A stretch of 46,145 nucleotides of DNA, from positions 2,581,555 to 2,627,699 of the forward strand of contig NZ_LSKU01000001.1 of NCBI RefSeq assembly GCF_001561915.1, read 5' to 3'. The notes under the pieces are model-generated. The model had not been told where the DNA came from and ran no database searches. It worked only from the letters and a program-made list of their open reading frames with translations. This document shows, piece after piece, positions 9,654 to 20,258 of the stretch. The DNA is from Tepidibacillus decaturensis. GTDB taxonomy: Bacteria > Bacillota > Bacilli > Tepidibacillales > Tepidibacillaceae. The position numbers were made by a program, and so were the translations under genes. Within the stretch, counting starts at the first letter, position 1. Each line of letters opens with the position of its first letter.

Positions 9654-9823
9654 ACTTTACACCACTCTTTCTAGCAAAGCACCCCTAATATATTAAATTA
9701 ATATCTTCTTATATTTTACGTGAAAAAAAGAAAAGAAAAAAGTTTTACTCCAAAATGCTAATCTCCAAATGTAGAGTCCCTGTCCATGCACTTGTTAAAA
9801 GAAACCAGAAATAATGGTTATCG

Positions 9824-9860
9824 AAAAAGGCACACTTACGTAATGTAAATGTACCTTTTT
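9824..9860 (-). terminator. Terminator of the tatA-fdhABI operon
   Basis: AAAAAGG..CA pairs with TGTGCCTTTTT on the minus strand in an 11-bp stem containing one T-G wobble (9824-9834 with 9850-9860). The T run is built into the distal arm. It lies directly after the cytochrome b subunit stop codon. The 170 bases between it and the ZIP start are AT-rich and show nothing else I can name. Confidence 0.8.
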
Positions 9861-9865
9861 CCTGT

Positions 9866-10591
9866 TTAAGCTTGGAATGTATTGTTTTTATTTTGATCGA
9901 CCTGTTTCATTTTCCTCATTTTTCTCTCACCACAGGTAATCATTTGATCGTACTTCACTTTATCAAACCATAATTTGTGGTGATGTTCTGCATATTCTGC
10001 CTCCATCCATCCTGTTGTCATCGCATTGAAAGATGCTCTTTCTCTGGCATGGAAAACGGTTAAATGCAAATGGATCCCGAAGAAAATCGTGATGATTACC
10101 GCAGAAACATCATGTATGACTAGCATCCATACTCCCAAAGAACCATTAAACCAATCAAACCATAATGCAAAACCTGACATGGCTAGTAGCAAACCAAAGA
10201 CAATGACAACTAGAAAATACAGTTTTTGTCCTGTATTATACTTATCCTGTGGCGGCATCCCTTCACCACCAATAAAATAGTGTTTAGGAGCGGCCTTTAA
10301 CCAACCAAAGTCATATTTGCCCCATTTAAAAGCAACTAAAAACCCCCAACGTTTACTAGAAAAAAGAAAATAAATCAGTGGTGCACCAATGAAGAGAATC
10401 GCCCCAATGCGATGTCCTTGGCGAAAAGCCATACCTGCTTCTGTTGTGAGCAGTGAAGCTGGTCCTTTAAAGAAAATCATAAACCCCGTTACAAGTAAAA
10501 GTATAAAACCAAGGGCAACCATCCAATGCATTATTTGATCGGGAACACAATATCTTTTTACATATTTCGTCCGTTTATAGGCTTTACTCAT
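9866..10591 (-). CDS. fdhI: Formate dehydrogenase cytochrome b556 (gamma) subunit
   Basis: 241-residue membrane subunit that anchors formate dehydrogenase and passes electrons from the iron-sulfur subunit to the menaquinone pool through b hemes. Four membrane segments are visible at about residues 22-42, 60-75, 125-145 and 155-180. Histidines in or near them (HWMVALGFILL, RQGHRIG, VIHDVSAVIITIFFGIHLHL) are candidate heme ligands, as in FdnI/FdoI. The ATG follows GGAGAAGAAAC and overlaps the end of fdhB by eight bases, indicating translational coupling. It is the last gene of the formate dehydrogenase operon. Confidence 0.92.
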   Translation of the reverse strand: MSKAYKRTKYVKRYCVPDQIMHWMVALGFILLLVTGFMIFFKGPASLLTTEAGMAFRQGHRIGAILFIGAPLIYFLFSSKRWGFLVAFKWGKYDFGWLKAAPKHYFIGGEGMPPQDKYNTGQKLYFLVVIVFGLLLAMSGFALWFDWFNGSLGVWMLVIHDVSAVIITIFFGIHLHLTVFHARERASFNAMTTGWMEAEYAEHHHKLWFDKVKYDQMITCGERKMRKMKQVDQNKNNTFQA

Positions 10592-11432
10592 GTTTCTTCT
10601 CCTCCTTCAAAAAATCTTCAGGCTCATCTTTTCCATTAAAGTTAAAGGCGGTGGAAGAAACAATAAAGTTGGCTAGGAATCCAATTCCCGCGACACCCAT
10701 TAATACCTCGGTAACAGGTTTGATTACACCAGAGCGGAATTCAACCAATTCATTTGTTTTTGGATTGGTTGGTAAACCATACTCCTCCGGTTTCTCAGTT
10801 AAAACGTAAATATAGTGGGTTCCACCCATTAATTTGTCACCGTAAACATTCGCATTTGGAAAACGATTTTTAATTTGTTTAACTCGTTTATAGGCTTGTT
10901 TTATTGCCTCATCCCATGACATGAATTCTAATGCTTTGGTCGGACAAGTTTGTACACATGCAGGTGCTTCTCCATTGGTAATCTTATCCTGACAAAAATT
11001 ACATTTATTCATCTTATCCTTACCTGTAAAAGCATCATGCTGGTATCTTGGGATATCAAATGGACAAGCCTTCTCACAGTAGCCACAACCAATACAGCTT
11101 TCCTGATCAAAAGCAACAAAACCTTCCTTATGCTGATATAGCGCCCCTGTTGAACAGATCGCAACACAAGGAGCATCGGAACAATGCATACATTGATCTT
11201 TGCGAATTAACCACTCAAAAGTATTGGTCTTCGGATCATATTTTTCATCAAATCGCATCAAGGTTAAGGTATTAAACGAGCGATCAGCAGGGTTTTGGTA
11301 AGTACCTGGAACCTTATCAAACTCCGTAGCTGGAAGATTATGCCACTCTTTGCAAGCCAATTGACATGCTTTACAACCTGTACAAAGTGAGGTGTCAACT
11401 AATATCGCTTTATCTGTTTTTTGTGCCATCAT
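10584..11432 (-). CDS. fdhB: Formate dehydrogenase iron-sulfur (beta) subunit
   Basis: 282-residue electron-transfer subunit. Four cysteine clusters are visible in order: CTGCKACQLACKEWHN, CMHCSDAPCVAICSTGAL, CIGCGYCEKACPFDIP and CNFCQDKI..CVQTCPTKALEF. These should bind four [4Fe-4S] clusters wiring the molybdopterin site to the cytochrome. A single hydrophobic helix near residues 240-262 anchors it in the membrane, as in FdnH. The start is the ATG at 11432, whose ATGA overlaps the fdhA stop. No signal peptide is seen, consistent with hitch-hiking export with the Tat-targeted alpha subunit. Confidence 0.93.
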   Translation of the reverse strand: MMAQKTDKAILVDTSLCTGCKACQLACKEWHNLPATEFDKVPGTYQNPADRSFNTLTLMRFDEKYDPKTNTFEWLIRKDQCMHCSDAPCVAICSTGALYQHKEGFVAFDQESCIGCGYCEKACPFDIPRYQHDAFTGKDKMNKCNFCQDKITNGEAPACVQTCPTKALEFMSWDEAIKQAYKRVKQIKNRFPNANVYGDKLMGGTHYIYVLTEKPEEYGLPTNPKTNELVEFRSGVIKPVTEVLMGVAGIGFLANFIVSSTAFNFNGKDEPEDFLKEEKKHE

Positions 11433-14400
11433 TCATTATCCCCCTTCGTCACATTGCATAAGCATGCCTTATATTCTGGTGTACCTGTATTTGGATCGGT
11501 TACCGAGTTGGTCACAAGATTAATTGAATCCCCAGTTACAAGACCTTTAAATCCCCAACCCCAAGGAACACCAACGACTTCAATTTGTTTCCCATTAATC
11601 GTTAAGGTTTGGATACGATCAGTTACCATTGCCGAAATTGTTACCTTTCCCCGTGCTGTGGAAATCGTGACTTTATCTCCAGACTGAACACCGATTTTCT
11701 TTGCAAGATTTTTACTCATCTCGACAAAGTTGGAAGGCATTAATTCGTTCAATTGCGGTGTATTCCTAGTAACCCCACCTGATAAAAATTGCTCTGTCAG
11801 CATATAGGTGGTTAGAACATAAGGATAGTCTTTTGCTTCACCCAGTTTTTGAATTTCGGGAACTCTGAACTCACGCAAAATCGGGTTATTTTTTTGTTTT
11901 GGATAAAAAGCATTTTCTACCGGTGACTCTTTCGGCTCATAATGAGCAGGTAATGGTCCATCTGCAATTCCTGCTTCCTTAAGTATTGGAGCCACTTTGA
12001 ATATGTTAGGGTCATACCCTTCTTTCAATTCTACAGATACTTTTTCTGCTTGTGGTTGGGCATAAACCGTTCTAAACAATGCTCCTTTTGCATCAGCGAT
12101 TGGGAAGACTTTTGATCCTTCTGGTGTATTTGGTGCTTTATCTTTGGCAGCAACGTCTAAAATATCTGGACCTGTCCACTTGGTTCCATCCCACCATACA
12201 AGGGCACGATCTTTATCTCTAGGCTTCCCATTAATGTCAGCAGATCCACGGTTATAAAGAATACGAATATTTCCTGGCCATGCAAACGTCCAATTTGGAT
12301 AAAGTCCCAAGCCGCTAGGATCACTATTATCATGACGTAACGTGTGGTTTCCTTCCTCTGTAATCACGCCTGTATAAAGGCCGCCTAAGCCAGAAGAAAC
12401 TGTGCCTGGTTCTGCTTTTTGGATCTGTGCTGCACTATTTAATAGTTTCCCAGTTGTTAAATCATAGCCGTTTATCTCTTTTAAGACTTTCTCAAGATCG
12501 ATTTCTTCTTTGCCTTCTACATGATAATCCCATGTTAAATCGAGAATTGCGCGATCTTTTTCATCAGTGCTATTTTTATATAATTCTTTTAACTTTAATA
12601 GAATCATTGAGATGATATCGGCATCTGGTTTTGCTTCTCCAGGTGGACGAACCGCCGCCGGTTTCCCTTGAATCCACCTTGCAGAGTTGGTCATTGTACC
12701 TGCTTTCTCAAAAGACATCGCTGCAGGTAAAAGAATGACCTCTGTTTTGATCTCTTTTGGATTAGCACCAGGATGTTGCCAGAATGCTGCCGTTTCCGTT
12801 TCAAATACTTCAGAAACGACCAACATTTCTAATTTCGATAAGCCTTTCCAGACTAACTCTAAGTTCGGCGTACTAACCGCAGGGTTTTGTGCAAAAATAA
12901 GTCCTAATTTAAACTTCCCTTTGTTCATATTTTCAAAAATGGAAATATGACCTTGAGATGCTTCTTTTGAATCCCGTTTTGGCAAGTAATGATAACCGAA
13001 CTCATTTTCAGAAGTTGCTTTATCCCCATACCATGCTTTTAATAATGCAATTGTCTGCTTCGTTCTTGTTGTACCAAATGCCATCGCATAATCATTTAAT
13101 GTCGCATGTTTATCGGTTGGCGCTGGCATATAACCAGGTAAAATATGTGGTAAACAAGCCATATCGGTTGATCCTTGAACGTTAGGTTCTCCGCGGTTTG
13201 CATTGATACCGCCACCAGCCATTCCCATATTTCCAAGAAGTAATTGAAGGATTGCATACATGCGAATTCCTTGTACTCCAGTTGTTTTTTGGGTCATTCC
13301 TAAAGCATAAAGAATGGTTCCTGGACGATTTTCTACAAGAGTATCGGCAATTAATTTAATTTTTTCCGCCGGAATTCCCGTAACCTGGGAAGCCTTTTCA
13401 AATGTATAGTCTTTAAAATGTTCTTTTAATTTCATCAAGACGGTATCGGGATCATCAAAAGAATCGGCCACGATCGGTTTTCCATCTGGTCCTAACTGAT
13501 AGGTCCAAGTATCTTTGTTATATGTTTTCTTTGCTTCGTCAAAACCAGAGAATAAACCTTCATGAAAAGAGAACTCTGGGTTTACCTTGTAAAGTGCTGT
13601 GGTGTAATATTTGACATACTCTTGATCATATAATTTATTCTCAATGATATATTTCACAATCGCACCTAGATAAGCGATATCTGTCCCTGGTCGAATTTGG
13701 GCATAGATATCTGCTACTTTCGCGGTCCGATTGAAGCGTGGATCCACGACAATGATCTTGGCACCATTTTTTTGTGCTTTTAGTACCCAGCGCATCGCCA
13801 TTGGATGGTTTTCTGCGGTGTTATTTCCTCCGATTAAAAGAACTTTTGCATTTTTCATATCGGTAAAACTGTTTGTCATCGCTCCGCGACCAAATGAAGG
13901 GGCTAAACTAGCCACCGTTGGCGCATGTCATATCTCGGCTTGGTGTGTGTAATATTGAACACCAAGCGCACGGTTAAACTTTGTGTAGAGGTAAGCTTCT
14001 TCATTATCGATTTCCGCGCTTCCTAAACTAAACATTCCATTCACACGATTCACTTTCACGACTTTACCATCTTTGGTAGTAATTGTTTTTTCAAAGGTGT
14101 TATCACGAACCTCTTTAATCTTATTGGCAATTTTGCTAATCGCATCTTCCCAAGAGATGGGTTCCCATTTGTCACTTCCTGGCTTTCGCACTAATGGATA
14201 AGTAAGACGCAATTTTGAATTGTGCATTTCTTTTAAGGATCGACCTTTTGGGCATAATGCACCTTCATTAATCGGATGATTTTTTAATCCTTCTGTAGAT
14301 ACGATTTCATTTCCCTTTGTTTTAATCTCAATCCCACATCCTACGGAACAGAAGTGGCAGATACCATATGATGTAGCCGCACCTGCTGTCATTAATGGAT

Positions 14401-14512
14401 ATGTTTTATCATTTTCATTGTCTTTAGCAAATGCTTGTTTTTCTGCAAGGTAGGAAGCTGCTACAGATGCTGCAGTAAATTTAAAAAACTGGCGCCTTGT
14501 CAGCTTTGGCAT
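11429..14512 (-). CDS. fdhA: Formate dehydrogenase alpha subunit, selenocysteine-containing (TGA read as Sec195)
   Basis: Catalytic molybdopterin subunit, about 1027 residues, oxidising formate outside the membrane. A conventional reading stops at TGA (13928-13930), but the frame continues unbroken to 11429. The TGA falls where FdnG-type enzymes carry selenocysteine (HQAEI-U-HAPTVASLAPSFGRGAM). Residues 1-30 form a twin-arginine signal peptide (TRRQFFK), and Cys52, Cys55, Cys59 and Cys87 bind the first [4Fe-4S] cluster. MGMAGGGINANRGEPNVQG and the C-terminal molydopterin-dinucleotide domain (LTTYMLTEQF, VGVPWGWGFKG) follow. The SECIS hairpin lies just after the codon. The host must supply SelA, SelB, SelC and SelD, none of which are in this window. 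The ATG follows GAGGGGATAGAA. Confidence 0.95.
13899..13930 (-). promoter_or_regulatory. Bacterial SECIS element directing selenocysteine insertion
   Basis: Counting the U of UGA as 1, bases 18-22 (GGCUA) pair with 26-30 (UAGCC) around a GUU loop at 23-25. G15-G16 pair with C31-C32, leaving U17 bulged. In the E. coli fdhF SECIS the bulged U17 and loop bases G23 and U24 are the SelB contacts, and all three are conserved here at identical positions. The hairpin lies wholly within the fdhA coding sequence. Confidence 0.88.
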
Positions 14513-14588
14513 TTCTATCCCCTCTTCCTGAAAATTGATTTTTCTCTTTTGCTCTAATTTAAGTTCAAAATATTAAAAATATTGGTAA

Positions 14589-14606
14589 ATGTGAAATTAT
14601 TCACAA
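14589..14606 (-). promoter_or_regulatory. Rex- or FNR-type palindromic operator upstream of fdhA
   Basis: The 18 bases on the minus strand read TTGTGAATAATTTCACAT, with centre about 85 bases before the fdhA start. They fit the Rex consensus TTGTGAAWWWWTTCACAA except for the last base, and equally the FNR/CRP-type TGTGA-N6-TCACA. Both proteins tune anaerobic genes in Bacillales, and the sequence alone does not tell them apart. I see no well-placed -10 hexamer between the site and fdhA. Confidence 0.6.
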
Positions 14607-14621
14607 ATAGTGATATTGTTT

Positions 14622-14789
14622 TTACTTAGTGGTCGGTTGATCATCAATGATCTCTTTTGTTACACTTTTAAATTCCTTTAATGTTCGGCCAACAGCCTTT
14701 CCAAGCTCGGGTAAGCGATTCGGTCCAAAGATCACTAATGCAATCACCAAAATTAAAATTAATCCTGGCATACCAATATTAGAAAGCAT
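14622..14789 (-). CDS. tatA: TatA-family twin-arginine translocase subunit
   Basis: 55-residue protein: one N-terminal membrane helix (residues 8-21), then the hallmark [21 protein letters not shown] amphipathic segment with the conserved FGP hinge, and a short charged tail. TatA oligomers form the protein-conducting part of the Tat pathway together with TatC, which is not in this window. It sits about 110 bases upstream of fdhA, whose product carries a twin-arginine signal, so a dedicated substrate-linked TatA is likely. The ATG follows a run of seven Gs eight bases upstream. The Rex/FNR palindrome lies between the two genes. Confidence 0.9.
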
Positions 14790-15069
14790 CTTTTCGTCCC
14801 CCCCTTTTTTTATTTAAGATCTTTACAAATGTTGTCTTAGAACTTAATTGTAACTAAATTGTCACATTATTTATATATCTATTTTAATACTAATTCTTAA
14901 AAAAGAGAATGGTTAATTTTTTTAATTTTCAAATTTATTGTTACTTTTTTTATGGTGTCAATAGATTTTTCTTTTTTTTAAAATTTAATATTCTCATGAA
15001 GGTATTTTATGAAAAATATTGAATATTTAAACTAATATATATAAATCATGATTCATAGGAGGAGAGCGC
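14790..15069. other. AT-rich divergent intergenic region between tatA and aminotransferase
   Basis: 280 bases of very AT-rich DNA. On the minus strand TGTGACAATTTAGTTACA (near 14850-14867) is an imperfect inverted repeat that might be a regulator site for tatA. On the plus strand the same position offers TTGTCA as a possible -35. No riboswitch-like fold, repeat or extra open frame with a ribosome binding site is apparent. Confidence 0.35.
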
Positions 15070-16248
15070 ATGAACCAAGAATTAATTTTACCGAAACGAT
15101 TATTGATGGGTCCAGGACCTAGTGATGTTCATCCGCATGTTTTAAAAGCAATGGCAACCCCATTATTAGGACATTTGGACCCGACCTTTCTTAATATTAT
15201 GAATGAAACCATGGAATTGATTCGCTATGTTTACGAAACAAAAAATCAAGTAACGATTGCGATGTCAGGTACTGGCAGTGCTGGTATGGAAACGGTATTT
15301 GTGAATCTGATTGAACCAGGAGACAAGGTCATTATTGGGGTTAATGGTTTATTTGGTCAGCGGATGGTTGATGTTGCAAAAAGAGCAGGGGCTGAAGTGA
15401 TTCAAGTTCATGCAGAATGGGGAAGAATTATTAATCCAGATGATATAGAAAAAGCATTAAAAAATTATTCCCCTGTAAAAGCAGTAGCGGTGGTACACGC
15501 AGAAACATCTACAGGTGCAAACCAACCATTAGAAGAAATAGCAAAACTAGCGAAAGAATATGATGCTTTAATGATTGTTGACGCTGTTACTTCACTAGGT
15601 GGAACGAAAGTTGGGGTAGATAAGATTGGGATTGATGCGGTCTATAGCGGTACGCAAAAATGTCTTAGTGCTCCCCCAGGACTATCCCCAGTCAGTTTAA
15701 GTGATAAAGCGGTTGAAGTTCTAAAAAGCAGAAAAACAAAAGTACAAAGCTGGTACCTTGATTTGTCAATGATCCAGGCTTATTGGGGACAAGAACGTTT
15801 TTATCATCATACGGCACCGATTTCGATGATTTATGCACTTCATGAGGCATTAAGATTGATTAAAGAAGAAGGCTTAGAAGCTACCTTTAAACGTCATGAA
15901 CAAAACGGACGTGCTTTGCAAGCGGGAATTGAGGCGATGGGATTGGAGTTATTTGCGCAAGAAGGTCATCGCTTACCTATGCTCACCTCAGTCAATATTC
16001 CCGATAGTGCTGATGATGTGAAAGTACGCCATTTATTACTCGAGCGTTATGGGCTTGAAATCGGAGGAGGTTTAGGACCCACAAAGAATAAAATTTGGCG
16101 TGTAGGCCTCATGGGATATTCTTCTCAGAGAAGTAATGTCATTCAGTTCTTAACGGCATTGGAATCGATCTTATCCGAGTTAAAAATTAAGATCAATGAA
16201 GGGGAAGCTGTAAAAGCTGCCGAGAATTACTTAAATAATCATGAATAG
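15070..16248 (+). CDS. Class V PLP-dependent aminotransferase (alanine-glyoxylate / PucG type)
   Basis: 392-residue aminotransferase. Near the start LLMGPGPSDVHPHVLKAM and GHLDPTF are signatures of the alanine-glyoxylate/serine-pyruvate group. SGTGSAGMETVF binds the cofactor phosphate, IVDAVTSLGG holds the Asp for the pyridine nitrogen, and SGTQKCLSAPPGL carries the Schiff-base lysine near residue 197. Relatives in Bacillus include PucG, an ureidoglycine-glyoxylate aminotransferase, but no purine-degradation genes are nearby, so alanine or serine glyoxylate transamination is equally possible. The ATG follows GGAGGAGAGCGC. It stands alone, followed by no obvious terminator. Confidence 0.85.
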   Translation: MNQELILPKRLLMGPGPSDVHPHVLKAMATPLLGHLDPTFLNIMNETMELIRYVYETKNQVTIAMSGTGSAGMETVFVNLIEPGDKVIIGVNGLFGQRMVDVAKRAGAEVIQVHAEWGRIINPDDIEKALKNYSPVKAVAVVHAETSTGANQPLEEIAKLAKEYDALMIVDAVTSLGGTKVGVDKIGIDAVYSGTQKCLSAPPGLSPVSLSDKAVEVLKSRKTKVQSWYLDLSMIQAYWGQERFYHHTAPISMIYALHEALRLIKEEGLEATFKRHEQNGRALQAGIEAMGLELFAQEGHRLPMLTSVNIPDSADDVKVRHLLLERYGLEIGGGLGPTKNKIWRVGLMGYSSQRSNVIQFLTALESILSELKIKINEGEAVKAAENYLNNHE

Positions 16249-16347
16249 TATCGCTTCACCATAGAAGTAAAAAATAGGTTTGAGCCCTAATTTTTGCAAT
16301 GCTTGAATTACAGGTTGAGTAAATCTCAAAACATTGAGGTAGGTCAT
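16231..16347 (-). CDS. Possible 38-residue small protein of unknown function
   Basis: I do not recognise this frame. It starts at an ATG at 16347 preceded by AAGGAGAGG about eight to eleven bases upstream, a good ribosome binding site for an otherwise empty gap. The product begins MTYLNVLRFTQPVIQAL and ends in a hydrophobic tail rich in Phe, Tyr and Ile, so it could be membrane-associated. It overlaps the 3' end of the convergent aminotransferase gene by 18 bases. The rest of the gap to sspH holds nothing else I can identify. It could also be a chance frame. Confidence 0.35.
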   Translation of the reverse strand: MTYLNVLRFTQPVIQALQKLGLKPIFYFYGEAILFMII

Positions 16348-17612: not shown

Positions 17613-18931
17613 TATGATCTTCCCCCTAGCTTTATTCCTTCTTCTTCCACCCTTTCTTCATGATGACAACTTAATGCAGGATAATAGATCATTTTTGTGC
17701 GATGGTTTACGTTTTGTTTCAATGCTAAAATTTGTTCCTCATTCCCCTTTACCAGATGGCCTACCAAAAATCCCTTTTGTACAGAGATGGTTTCTCTTTT
17801 TATCATTTCTAATTCAAATTGGTGTAGCTTTACTTGCCAAAACATTTGATCTGCACTAGTCATTGGATGATGTTGCTCATGAATGATTAACCAAAATGGA
17901 TTTTCTATTGATTCTGTAACCGTGGCCGTTGTTTCTATTTCCTTTTTATGGTGATAGGAATAGGTTGGATGTTGAAGAACGTCTACTAAATCCTCTACAA
18001 TCGCACTAGCTGTAGGAAGAGAGCCTGCTCCTGGACCTTGTAAAAATAGGCGGCCAACAACATCAGTTTCAATAATGATCGCATTATCTACCCCTTCAAC
18101 ACTATACAATGGATTAGACTCTGCTAAACAGGTTGGTTCTACTCGGACATTCCAGCCTGTATCTGACTTATAAAGTGATGCAACTAGTTTCATTCGTAAG
18201 CCTAGTTCTTCAACAAGAGCCAATTGTTCCAGCGTAACCTCCGAGACCCCAATCTTTTTCACTGAAGCCCAGTTTGGTCGTTCAGGAAAGATGATGTCAC
18301 TTAAAACCATTAATTTATAAAAAGCATCCCAGCCTTCAATATCATTTGTAGGATCTGCTTCTGCAAAACCTGCTGCTTGTGCTTCCTTTAACGCCTGTTT
18401 AAAGGAAATTCGTTTTTTCCTCATTTGACTCAGAATATAATTCGAAGTCCCGTTTATAATCCCTTGGATTTTTGTAATTTGATTCACTTGAAGCAATTGT
18501 TTAATCGTCCGAATAATAGGAATTCCACCAGCTACACTAGCTTCAAAGGCTAGCATTACCCCATATTGTTTCGCGATTTCCTTTAATTCAGCTCCATTAA
18601 ATGCCATTAATTCTTTATTTGCTGTAATCACATGACAACCTTTTGAGAGTGCCTGAATGATATATTGATAGGCAGGATCTCTTCCCCCTATCATTTCAAT
18701 GACTACGTCTAATTTAGGTAATTGTAAAATATCCTGATAATTCGTTGTAACGAGAATAGAATCCCTCATCTCCAAAACTCGTTTCTTCTCTATATCCTGA
18801 ATCAAAATCGCAACGACTTCAACAGACTTGCCTAAGATATGTTGTAATTGTTTTTGATGGGAAATGATCGTTTGATATACACCAGTTCCCACCGTACCCA
18901 AACCTAGTAAGGCTACCTTAATCGATTCCAT
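17612..18931 (-). CDS. hom: Homoserine dehydrogenase
   Basis: 439-residue enzyme that reduces aspartate semialdehyde to homoserine. The nucleotide-binding motif GLGTVGTGVYQTI starts at residue 10. VITANKELMA carries the catalytic Lys region. GGIPIIRTI, GIINGTSNYIL and the substrate-binding EAQAAGFAEADPTNDIEGWDA follow. A C-terminal region of about 100 residues occupies the ACT position but is divergent. The ATG lies inside the end of metX (14-base overlap) and the stop shares a base with metF, so the three genes are translationally coupled. The S-box places this copy under methionine/SAM control, suggesting it feeds methionine specifically and that another hom may serve threonine. Confidence 0.93.
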   Translation of the reverse strand: MESIKVALLGLGTVGTGVYQTIISHQKQLQHILGKSVEVVAILIQDIEKKRVLEMRDSILVTTNYQDILQLPKLDVVIEMIGGRDPAYQYIIQALSKGCHVITANKELMAFNGAELKEIAKQYGVMLAFEASVAGGIPIIRTIKQLLQVNQITKIQGIINGTSNYILSQMRKKRISFKQALKEAQAAGFAEADPTNDIEGWDAFYKLMVLSDIIFPERPNWASVKKIGVSEVTLEQLALVEELGLRMKLVASLYKSDTGWNVRVEPTCLAESNPLYSVEGVDNAIIIETDVVGRLFLQGPGAGSLPTASAIVEDLVDVLQHPTYSYHHKKEIETTATVTESIENPFWLIIHEQHHPMTSADQMFWQVKLHQFELEMIKRETISVQKGFLVGHLVKGNEEQILALKQNVNHRTKMIYYPALSCHHEERVEEEGIKLGGRS

Positions 18932-20012
18932 ATAAACCCTCCTTTACAATCGATCCCCATTTATCAAATTCGACTAAAAAACCATCATGGCCATAAATCG
19001 TATCGATCTCATAAAAATTTGCATGACCTCCTAATTGACGATAGGCCTCTGTTAGCTCCTTTAAACTTTCTGGCGGATAAAGCAAATCCCCTTTATAGGC
19101 AATAGCGATCATAGGGGCTTTTAATAATTTCAAGGCTTCTTTCCATCCTCCACGGCCACGACCGATGTCATGACTATCCATCGCCTTAAGTAAATATAGA
19201 TAGCTATTGGCATCAAAACGTTTTGTTAATTTATCTCCTTGATAACTAAGATAAGATTCTATTTCAAACGTAATTTCATCGTGGGAATTCCCCCACTCAT
19301 TACGAAGGCTCCTCTGAAAACGTTGATTATACAACTCTTGTGAACGATAAGTAATCATTCCTAACATACGTGCAAGACTTAATCCATGATCAGGTTTATC
19401 TTCCAATGGATAATTTCCATGATTCCATTTAGGGTCATGAATAATAGCAAAGCGGGACATAGCATTAAAAGCGATGGCATAGTCACTTAAATAAGAAGTC
19501 GCAGCAAGGGGAAATAGCTTATCCATAAAGGTAGGGTAAAGAATTCCCCATTCCAAAACTTGCATTCCACCTAATGACCCTCCAATCACTGCATGCACAT
19601 GATCAATACCCATTTTCCTTAATGCTTTGTATTGAGCATGAACCATATCCCTGATGGTAACAAAGGGAAATGAAGCACGATAAATCTCTTTATTGTCAGG
19701 GTTTATACTTAAAGGACCTGTTGTACCATTACATCCACCAATCACGTTTGTCGTAATCACTTGATACTCATTCGTATCAATCCATTGATAGGGGCCAATC
19801 ATCCCAGACCACCAACCAGATGTCCCATCATTTCCATAAGCAAATTGATTTCCTGTCAAACCATGACACACTAATATAACAGGTGCACCAATGGAGCCTA
19901 CCCTCTCATAAGCTATATGAGCTTGTGGTAAAATCGTTCCAGATTCAAGCATTAAATCTCCAATTTCTATTTTTCCATACTCATAATGAAGATTGATCTC
20001 TGCCACCGCCAT
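18918..20012 (-). CDS. metX: Homoserine O-acetyltransferase (MetX family)
   Basis: 364-residue alpha/beta-hydrolase enzyme that activates homoserine for methionine synthesis. CHGLTGNQFA forms the oxyanion region, GGSLGGMQVLEW holds the nucleophilic Ser, YKGDLLYPPE the Asp and YGHDGFLVE the His. The motifs AYERVGSIGAPVILV and VIGGCNGTTGPLS are standard for the family. MetX sequences are usually acetyl-CoA-dependent; a succinyl-specific variant cannot be excluded by eye. The ATG follows GAGGAGGAGTAAGG. It is the first gene after an S-box leader (20124-20226) with two terminators, so it is expressed when S-adenosylmethionine is low. Confidence 0.93.
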   Translation of the reverse strand: MAVAEINLHYEYGKIEIGDLMLESGTILPQAHIAYERVGSIGAPVILVCHGLTGNQFAYGNDGTSGWWSGMIGPYQWIDTNEYQVITTNVIGGCNGTTGPLSINPDNKEIYRASFPFVTIRDMVHAQYKALRKMGIDHVHAVIGGSLGGMQVLEWGILYPTFMDKLFPLAATSYLSDYAIAFNAMSRFAIIHDPKWNHGNYPLEDKPDHGLSLARMLGMITYRSQELYNQRFQRSLRNEWGNSHDEITFEIESYLSYQGDKLTKRFDANSYLYLLKAMDSHDIGRGRGGWKEALKLLKAPMIAIAYKGDLLYPPESLKELTEAYRQLGGHANFYEIDTIYGHDGFLVEFDKWGSIVKEGLYGID

Positions 20013-20110: not shown

Positions 20111-20123
20111 GATCGCCGCTCTT

Positions 20124-20226
20124 CTTATCTATCAGAACATGAATGTTCTGCAGGAATTGGCACCGCGTTTTATTTAAACCGGTTGCCGGGCTTCATAGGG
20201 CCAGTCCCTCCGCCTCTCTGGATAAG
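20124..20226 (-). promoter_or_regulatory. SAM-I riboswitch (S-box) controlling metX-hom-metF
   Basis: The minus strand shows the full S-box order: CTTATCcAGAG at the start, GGCGGAGGGACTGGCCC, GAAGCCCGGCAACC, then GGTGCCAATTCCTGC and AGAACATTC-type hairpins, closing with GATAAG pairing back to CTTATC. S-adenosylmethionine binding stabilises the aptamer and permits the terminator at 20082-20110. Regulation of methionine synthesis genes is the established role of this class. Confidence 0.96.
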
Positions 20227-20258
20227 AATTTCCTTTATTAAATTAAATGATTAATACA

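Follow-up and report, generated by a model that had tools for sequence, protein, structure and literature searches.

The window, a stretch of 46,145 nucleotides from Tepidibacillus decaturensis, carries a formate dehydrogenase operon that very probably encodes a selenocysteine (Sec)-containing, Tat-exported, quinone-linked enzyme of the FDH-N type, and that was probably acquired laterally and later subject to allele exchange. Judged from its sequence, FdhA is a genuine Sec formate dehydrogenase of a well-known enzyme type. Only the recombination mosaic around its gene departs from what would be expected, and this departure is mildly surprising.

The formate dehydrogenase operon and its selenocysteine codon

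On the minus strand, the genes are arranged in the order tatA-like, fdhA, fdhB, fdhC. The fdhA gene (11429..14512, minus strand) encodes an FDH-N alpha subunit of 1,027 amino acids with one Sec codon. Its frame runs from the ATG at 14512 to the final TGA ending at 11429 and contains exactly one internal TGA, at codon 195 (13928..13930, minus strand); mechanical ORF calling breaks the gene into parts of 194 and 828 amino acids. FdhA scores 1018.1 bits against TIGR01553 (cut-off 814.2), matching positions 2-1009 of the 1009 in the model, and matches E. coli FdnG (PDB 1kqf_A) with an E-value of 1.3e-224. The codon following 'QAEI' aligns with the X (Sec) of 1kqf_A, corresponding to Sec196 of E. 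coli FdnG. The Sec formate dehydrogenase claimed in an earlier note on this DNA is thus borne out by a single frame with TGA on the Sec position of FdnG. The N-terminus of FdhA is of the RR type (LTRRQFFKFTA).

A rival reading is a pseudogene, with the TGA acting as a normal stop codon or arising from a sequencing error in a Cys gene, and broken formate dehydrogenase genes do occur in the genome, where a Cys-type paralogue carries an in-frame TAG. We nevertheless regard this explanation as extremely improbable, as the TGA falls exactly on the Sec position and is followed by 832 further residues without a stop. TGA is also found in a genome of another genus of the same family (G002), and in 12 of 12 loci from a genome-contig search. 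The SECIS covariation and the full set of sel genes described below likewise speak against a pseudogene.

The fdhB gene (10584..11432, minus strand) encodes an Fe-S subunit that has a hydrophobic stretch at its C-terminal end and matches Pfam Fer4_11, while fdhC (9866..10591, minus strand) encodes a cytochrome b subunit (Ni_hydr_CYTB, E 1.8e-22). Both products score under the NCBIfam cut-offs (FdhB, 255.8 vs. 334.7 bits for TIGR01582; FdhC, 95.7 vs. 115.85 bits for TIGR01583), yet their best NCBIfam matches are FDH-beta and FDH-gamma, respectively. We therefore hold the fdhB product at FDH-N-like. The tatA-like gene (14622..14789, minus strand; 55 amino acids) was recognized by eye from its sequence.

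The operon shares with E. coli FDH-N (FdnGHI) a Sec residue at the matching place, an identical SECIS register and the alpha-beta-gamma gene order, with identities of 40% for FdhA, 41% for FdhB (to FdnH) and 25% for FdhC (to FdnI). It differs from the E. coli system by having the tatA-like gene directly upstream, and by the below-cut-off scores of FdhB and FdhC. Closer relatives of FdhA are found in Virgibacillus sp. MSJ-26 (71% identity) and Cerasibacillus quisquiliarum (70%). Their operons have the TGA codon, the order fdhA-fdhB-fdhC and a tatA-like gene in common with the window, and SelA is present in both genomes; the tatA-like gene follows fdhC in these two operons, whereas it precedes fdhA in the window. 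The alpha subunit also resembles those of the Sec formate dehydrogenases of PDB 9qm0, 8cm4 and 1h0h (E down to 2.3e-223), which we take to have been solved as enzymes lacking a cytochrome b subunit.

By analogy with FDH-N, a working scheme can be outlined for the enzyme. SelB carrying Sec-tRNA-Sec would bind the hairpin downstream of the UGA, so that this codon is decoded as Sec195, and folded FdhA-FdhB would leave the cytoplasm via the Tat system. Sec195 would ligate Mo or W in a bis-MGD site where formate is oxidized, and the electrons would pass through the Fe-S clusters of FdhB to FdhC, the cytochrome b subunit, and from there to menaquinone.

The SECIS hairpin

The predicted bacterial SECIS hairpin (13899..13916, minus strand) lies at the low end of the interval 13899-14512 considered in the earlier note. 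Numbered with the U of UGA as 1, it consists of G15 and G16, a bulged U17, a stem of 18-22 and 26-30, and a loop with G23 and U24. U at position 17 and GU at 23-24 occur in identical register in E. coli fdhF and fdnG, in agreement with the spacing that had been claimed for fdhF, and the dot-bracket shape equals that of fdnG.

The single-sequence fold was not significant (-8.4 kcal/mol, z -0.52, with 60 of 200 shuffles equally good), and folding energy was accordingly dropped as proof of a SECIS element. Because the fold by itself is unremarkable, the hairpin was compared across relatives. Rfam at the gathering threshold gave no SECIS family match in the window, the sole match being a SAM riboswitch, and the hairpin claim thus rests on register and covariation.

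The covariation set comprised 31 loci plus the window, giving 28 TGA rows (26 distinct) and four Cys rows (L047, L082, L083 and L084), after leaving out six near-duplicates of L037 (L038-L041, L044 and L045). Pairs 18-30 and 21-27 fall on third codon positions on both sides and are formed by several pair types. Each is standard in 25 of the 26 distinct TGA sequences, a level reached by none of 10,000 shuffles, although the shuffles overstate significance because the rows are related and one of them (L046) is a paralogue. The Cys rows keep these two wobble-wobble pairs in only two of four (18-30) and one of four (21-27) cases. When all 66 wobble-wobble column pairs were scanned, the excess over shuffles was largest for 18-30 and third largest for 21-27. 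Pair 19-29 switches between G-C and C-G alongside a protein change from Ala..Ala to Pro..Gly. U17 is kept in all 26 distinct TGA rows; positions 23-24 read GU in 24 of them and GG in the other two. For each of the two pairs below the bulge, 15-32 and 16-31, just 15 of 26 rows have a standard pair, and other rows have pairing of U17 as an alternative. Taken at the synonymous positions, the covariation supports the predicted hairpin.

The two exceptions at the loop, L088 and L089 (in G148 and G169), are both second FdhA copies with the loop GGGCU in place of GGUCU (G24).

Selenocysteine machinery and further predicted selenoproteins

The earlier note had proposed a check for selA, selB, selC and selD, and all four were found in the genome. 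A tRNA-Sec gene, selC (C1:768699-768791), was detected with 67.8 bits, over the cut-off, and with a tca anticodon. SelB (640 amino acids) scored 370.6 bits including neighbors in frame, SelA (C1:780856-782214) 611.8 bits and SelD (C1:792930-793859) 387.5 bits, the last with one in-frame TGA in the context 'SGUGCK'. The same genome also encodes the selenouridine synthase MnmH (L023:11757-12833). At the level of gene content, this complete sel set settles that the lineage has every gene needed for selenoproteins.

At least three selenoproteins are predicted, as fdhA, selD and a second formate dehydrogenase gene each carry an in-frame TGA. In the second formate dehydrogenase (L046:6053-11053; C1:1116052-1121052 of the window genome, G000) the TGA falls in 'ARTUHAPTV'. 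This protein has extra N-terminal cysteine-rich stretches, its gene lies beside nuoE- and nuoF-like genes, and it is probably a soluble NAD-linked enzyme.

The Cys-type paralogue (L047) has TGT at the Sec/Cys site, which is preceded in the gene by an in-frame TAG (L047:6543-6545; C1:1426542-1426544 of G000, minus strand). Recoding of a stop codon other than UGA was considered for this gene; since the TAG lies off the Sec/Cys site, recoding was rejected and a broken gene preferred. The Cys-type paralogue thus looks broken while both Sec formate dehydrogenase genes appear intact.

Distribution in the class and order

The earlier statement that selenoproteins are rare in Bacillales proved overstated. 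In a sample of 398 genomes from 145 genera, drawn evenly from the class, SelA was present in 85 of the genomes and in 60 of the genera. A draw centered on Cerasibacillus gave SelA in 85 of 397 genomes, largely with the same matches, which places the window in one class with Cerasibacillus. A survey of 2006, in the part drawn on here, listed three selenoproteins for Bacillales (PMC1794560). Formate dehydrogenase alpha was described ten years later, again in the portion of the source consulted, as the most widespread bacterial selenoprotein family, found in 822 organisms (PMC5029168).

A class search for FDH-N-like FdhA (E 1e-120), in which the best two candidates per genome were scored, gave matches in 19 of 398 genomes. 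TGA was present in 21 of these 24 matches (16 genomes), and the remaining three, from three genomes, have TGC, TGT and TGC at the site. SelA was found in 16 of 16 genomes with a TGA-type FdhA and in none of the three with a Cys-type FdhA, a clean correlate within the class sample: TGA occurs only where SelA is, and Cys only where SelA is absent. In the order to which the window belongs, all five genomes examined have SelA and selC. FdhA at E 1e-200 was found in three of the five, with TGA in all three; none was detected at this threshold in the other two (G001 and G004).

Literature searches on Sec in Virgibacillus, formate dehydrogenase in Tepidibacillus, selA in Paenibacillus and newer work on Bacilli, conducted mostly at the level of listings and including part of PMC5330540, returned no paper on this operon.

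A near-identical block shared with another genus

Positions 9775..16282 of the window, covering fdhCBA, tatA and an aminotransferase gene, are 95.7% identical to G002 over 6,516 columns, while the remaining parts of the window that match G002 show 66-79% identity. At the block edges, identity drops within about 100 bp on both sides. By gene, identity amounts to 90.4% for fdhC, 92.2% for fdhB, 97.9% for fdhA, 94.1% for the spacer with tatA and 97.3% for the aminotransferase gene. The block is a mosaic, mostly of 83-100% identity in 100-bp steps, and contains a run of 1,760 bp without a mismatch inside fdhA (11886..13645); the next two runs, split by single mismatches, extend the tract to 13981, over the Sec codon and the SECIS hairpin. 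The GC content is 38.5% and 38.9% in the block and 36.5% and 37.3% in the genome samples.

As background, 20 stretches of 20 kb per genome and eight further stretches of G002 were compared, counting pieces of at least 300 columns after removal of overlapping weaker pieces. The resulting 30 pieces (61.8 kb) had a mean identity of 73.7% between G000 and G002; one of the 30 reached 90% (90.7%) and none reached 95%. Within this sample, one segment (L123:2763-8694; C1:1692763-1698694 of G000) showed mostly raised identity to G002, of 82-91%.

Vertical inheritance under strong selection could keep such a block alike, and the two genomes do share its chromosomal location, as expected from descent; an assembly or contamination artefact might also be suspected, since G002 is a draft of 40 contigs. 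Both are improbable in our judgment. Between the window and G002, identity is 95.1% at the third codon positions of fdhA and 94.1% in the tatA spacer separating fdhA from the aminotransferase gene, against a background of about 74%. Moreover, the block lies within contigs, has diverged flanks on both sides and is itself mosaic, a pattern that contamination does not give. We infer instead a lateral acquisition of the operon followed by recent allele exchange.

A second block, reaching from selA to a mobile-looking segment (C1:780810-792583), is 98.9% identical to G002 and contains, as recognized by eye, transporter, ThiF-like and transposase-like genes. The pab-type genes beside it are 95.6% identical, selB 71.9% and the selC stretch 86%. 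As selA is located at the edge of this block, it may have ridden along with the mobile-looking segment.

Next to selA, about 10 kb (L024:8811-20000; C1:780810-791999 of G000) are nearly 100% identical to another genus. By eye, this segment holds genes for an MFS transporter, a 771-amino-acid ThiF-like protein and transposase-like proteins, and it looks like a recently moved element.

Origin of the operon

A tree of 31 FdhA rows places the window and G002, with full support, as sister to Virgibacillus sp. MSJ-26 plus Cerasibacillus; G003, which represents a third genus of the window's own family, falls elsewhere in the tree. Taken together with the identities, this topology suggests that the operon would have entered the lineage laterally from, or together with, Bacillaceae stock, and that homologous recombination at an unchanged chromosomal position would later have swapped its allele with that of another genus in the window's own family.

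The position of G003 could also be read as that of a genome which merely carries a different, paralogous formate dehydrogenase, with the operon being native to the family. In several genomes of the class, such as G034 and G041, the two FDH-N copies fall on separate branches, so that paralogy with differential loss is conceivable. We consider this reading unlikely, though less so than descent or artefact as a source of the block, because, of the 31 rows, the clade takes in only those of the window, G002, Virgibacillus sp. MSJ-26 and Cerasibacillus, and G001 and G004 gave no FdhA in the search of the order described above. Lateral entry is the reading we prefer.

In the portion of the study by Zhang et al. 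(2006; PMC1794560) consulted, the Sec trait is said to be transferred as a cluster in which selA, selB and selC are accompanied by a selenoprotein gene. The present data lean somewhat towards a Sec operon that moves by itself between Sec-decoding genera. On this view, homologous recombination between two genera that share about 74% identity elsewhere would have swapped the fdh block, and also selA beside the mobile-looking segment; the identical 1.76-kb tract in the Sec gene would be left from this exchange, and selB and selC would have remained native. It seems that the operon of one selenoprotein, and selA separately from selB and selC, travel from one host to another where both already bear the trait. 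Such travel does not conflict with the rule of Zhang et al., as far as the consulted part of that paper states it, and would add a second mode.

Other genes and elements in the window

The class V aminotransferase gene (15070..16248, plus strand) is divergently oriented and its product scores below all equivalog cut-offs; although the gene lies inside the exchanged block, we found no evidence linking it functionally to the formate dehydrogenase. The ORF at 18918-20012 has the SAM riboswitch (RF00162, 101.3 bits; 20122-20228, minus strand) upstream of it.
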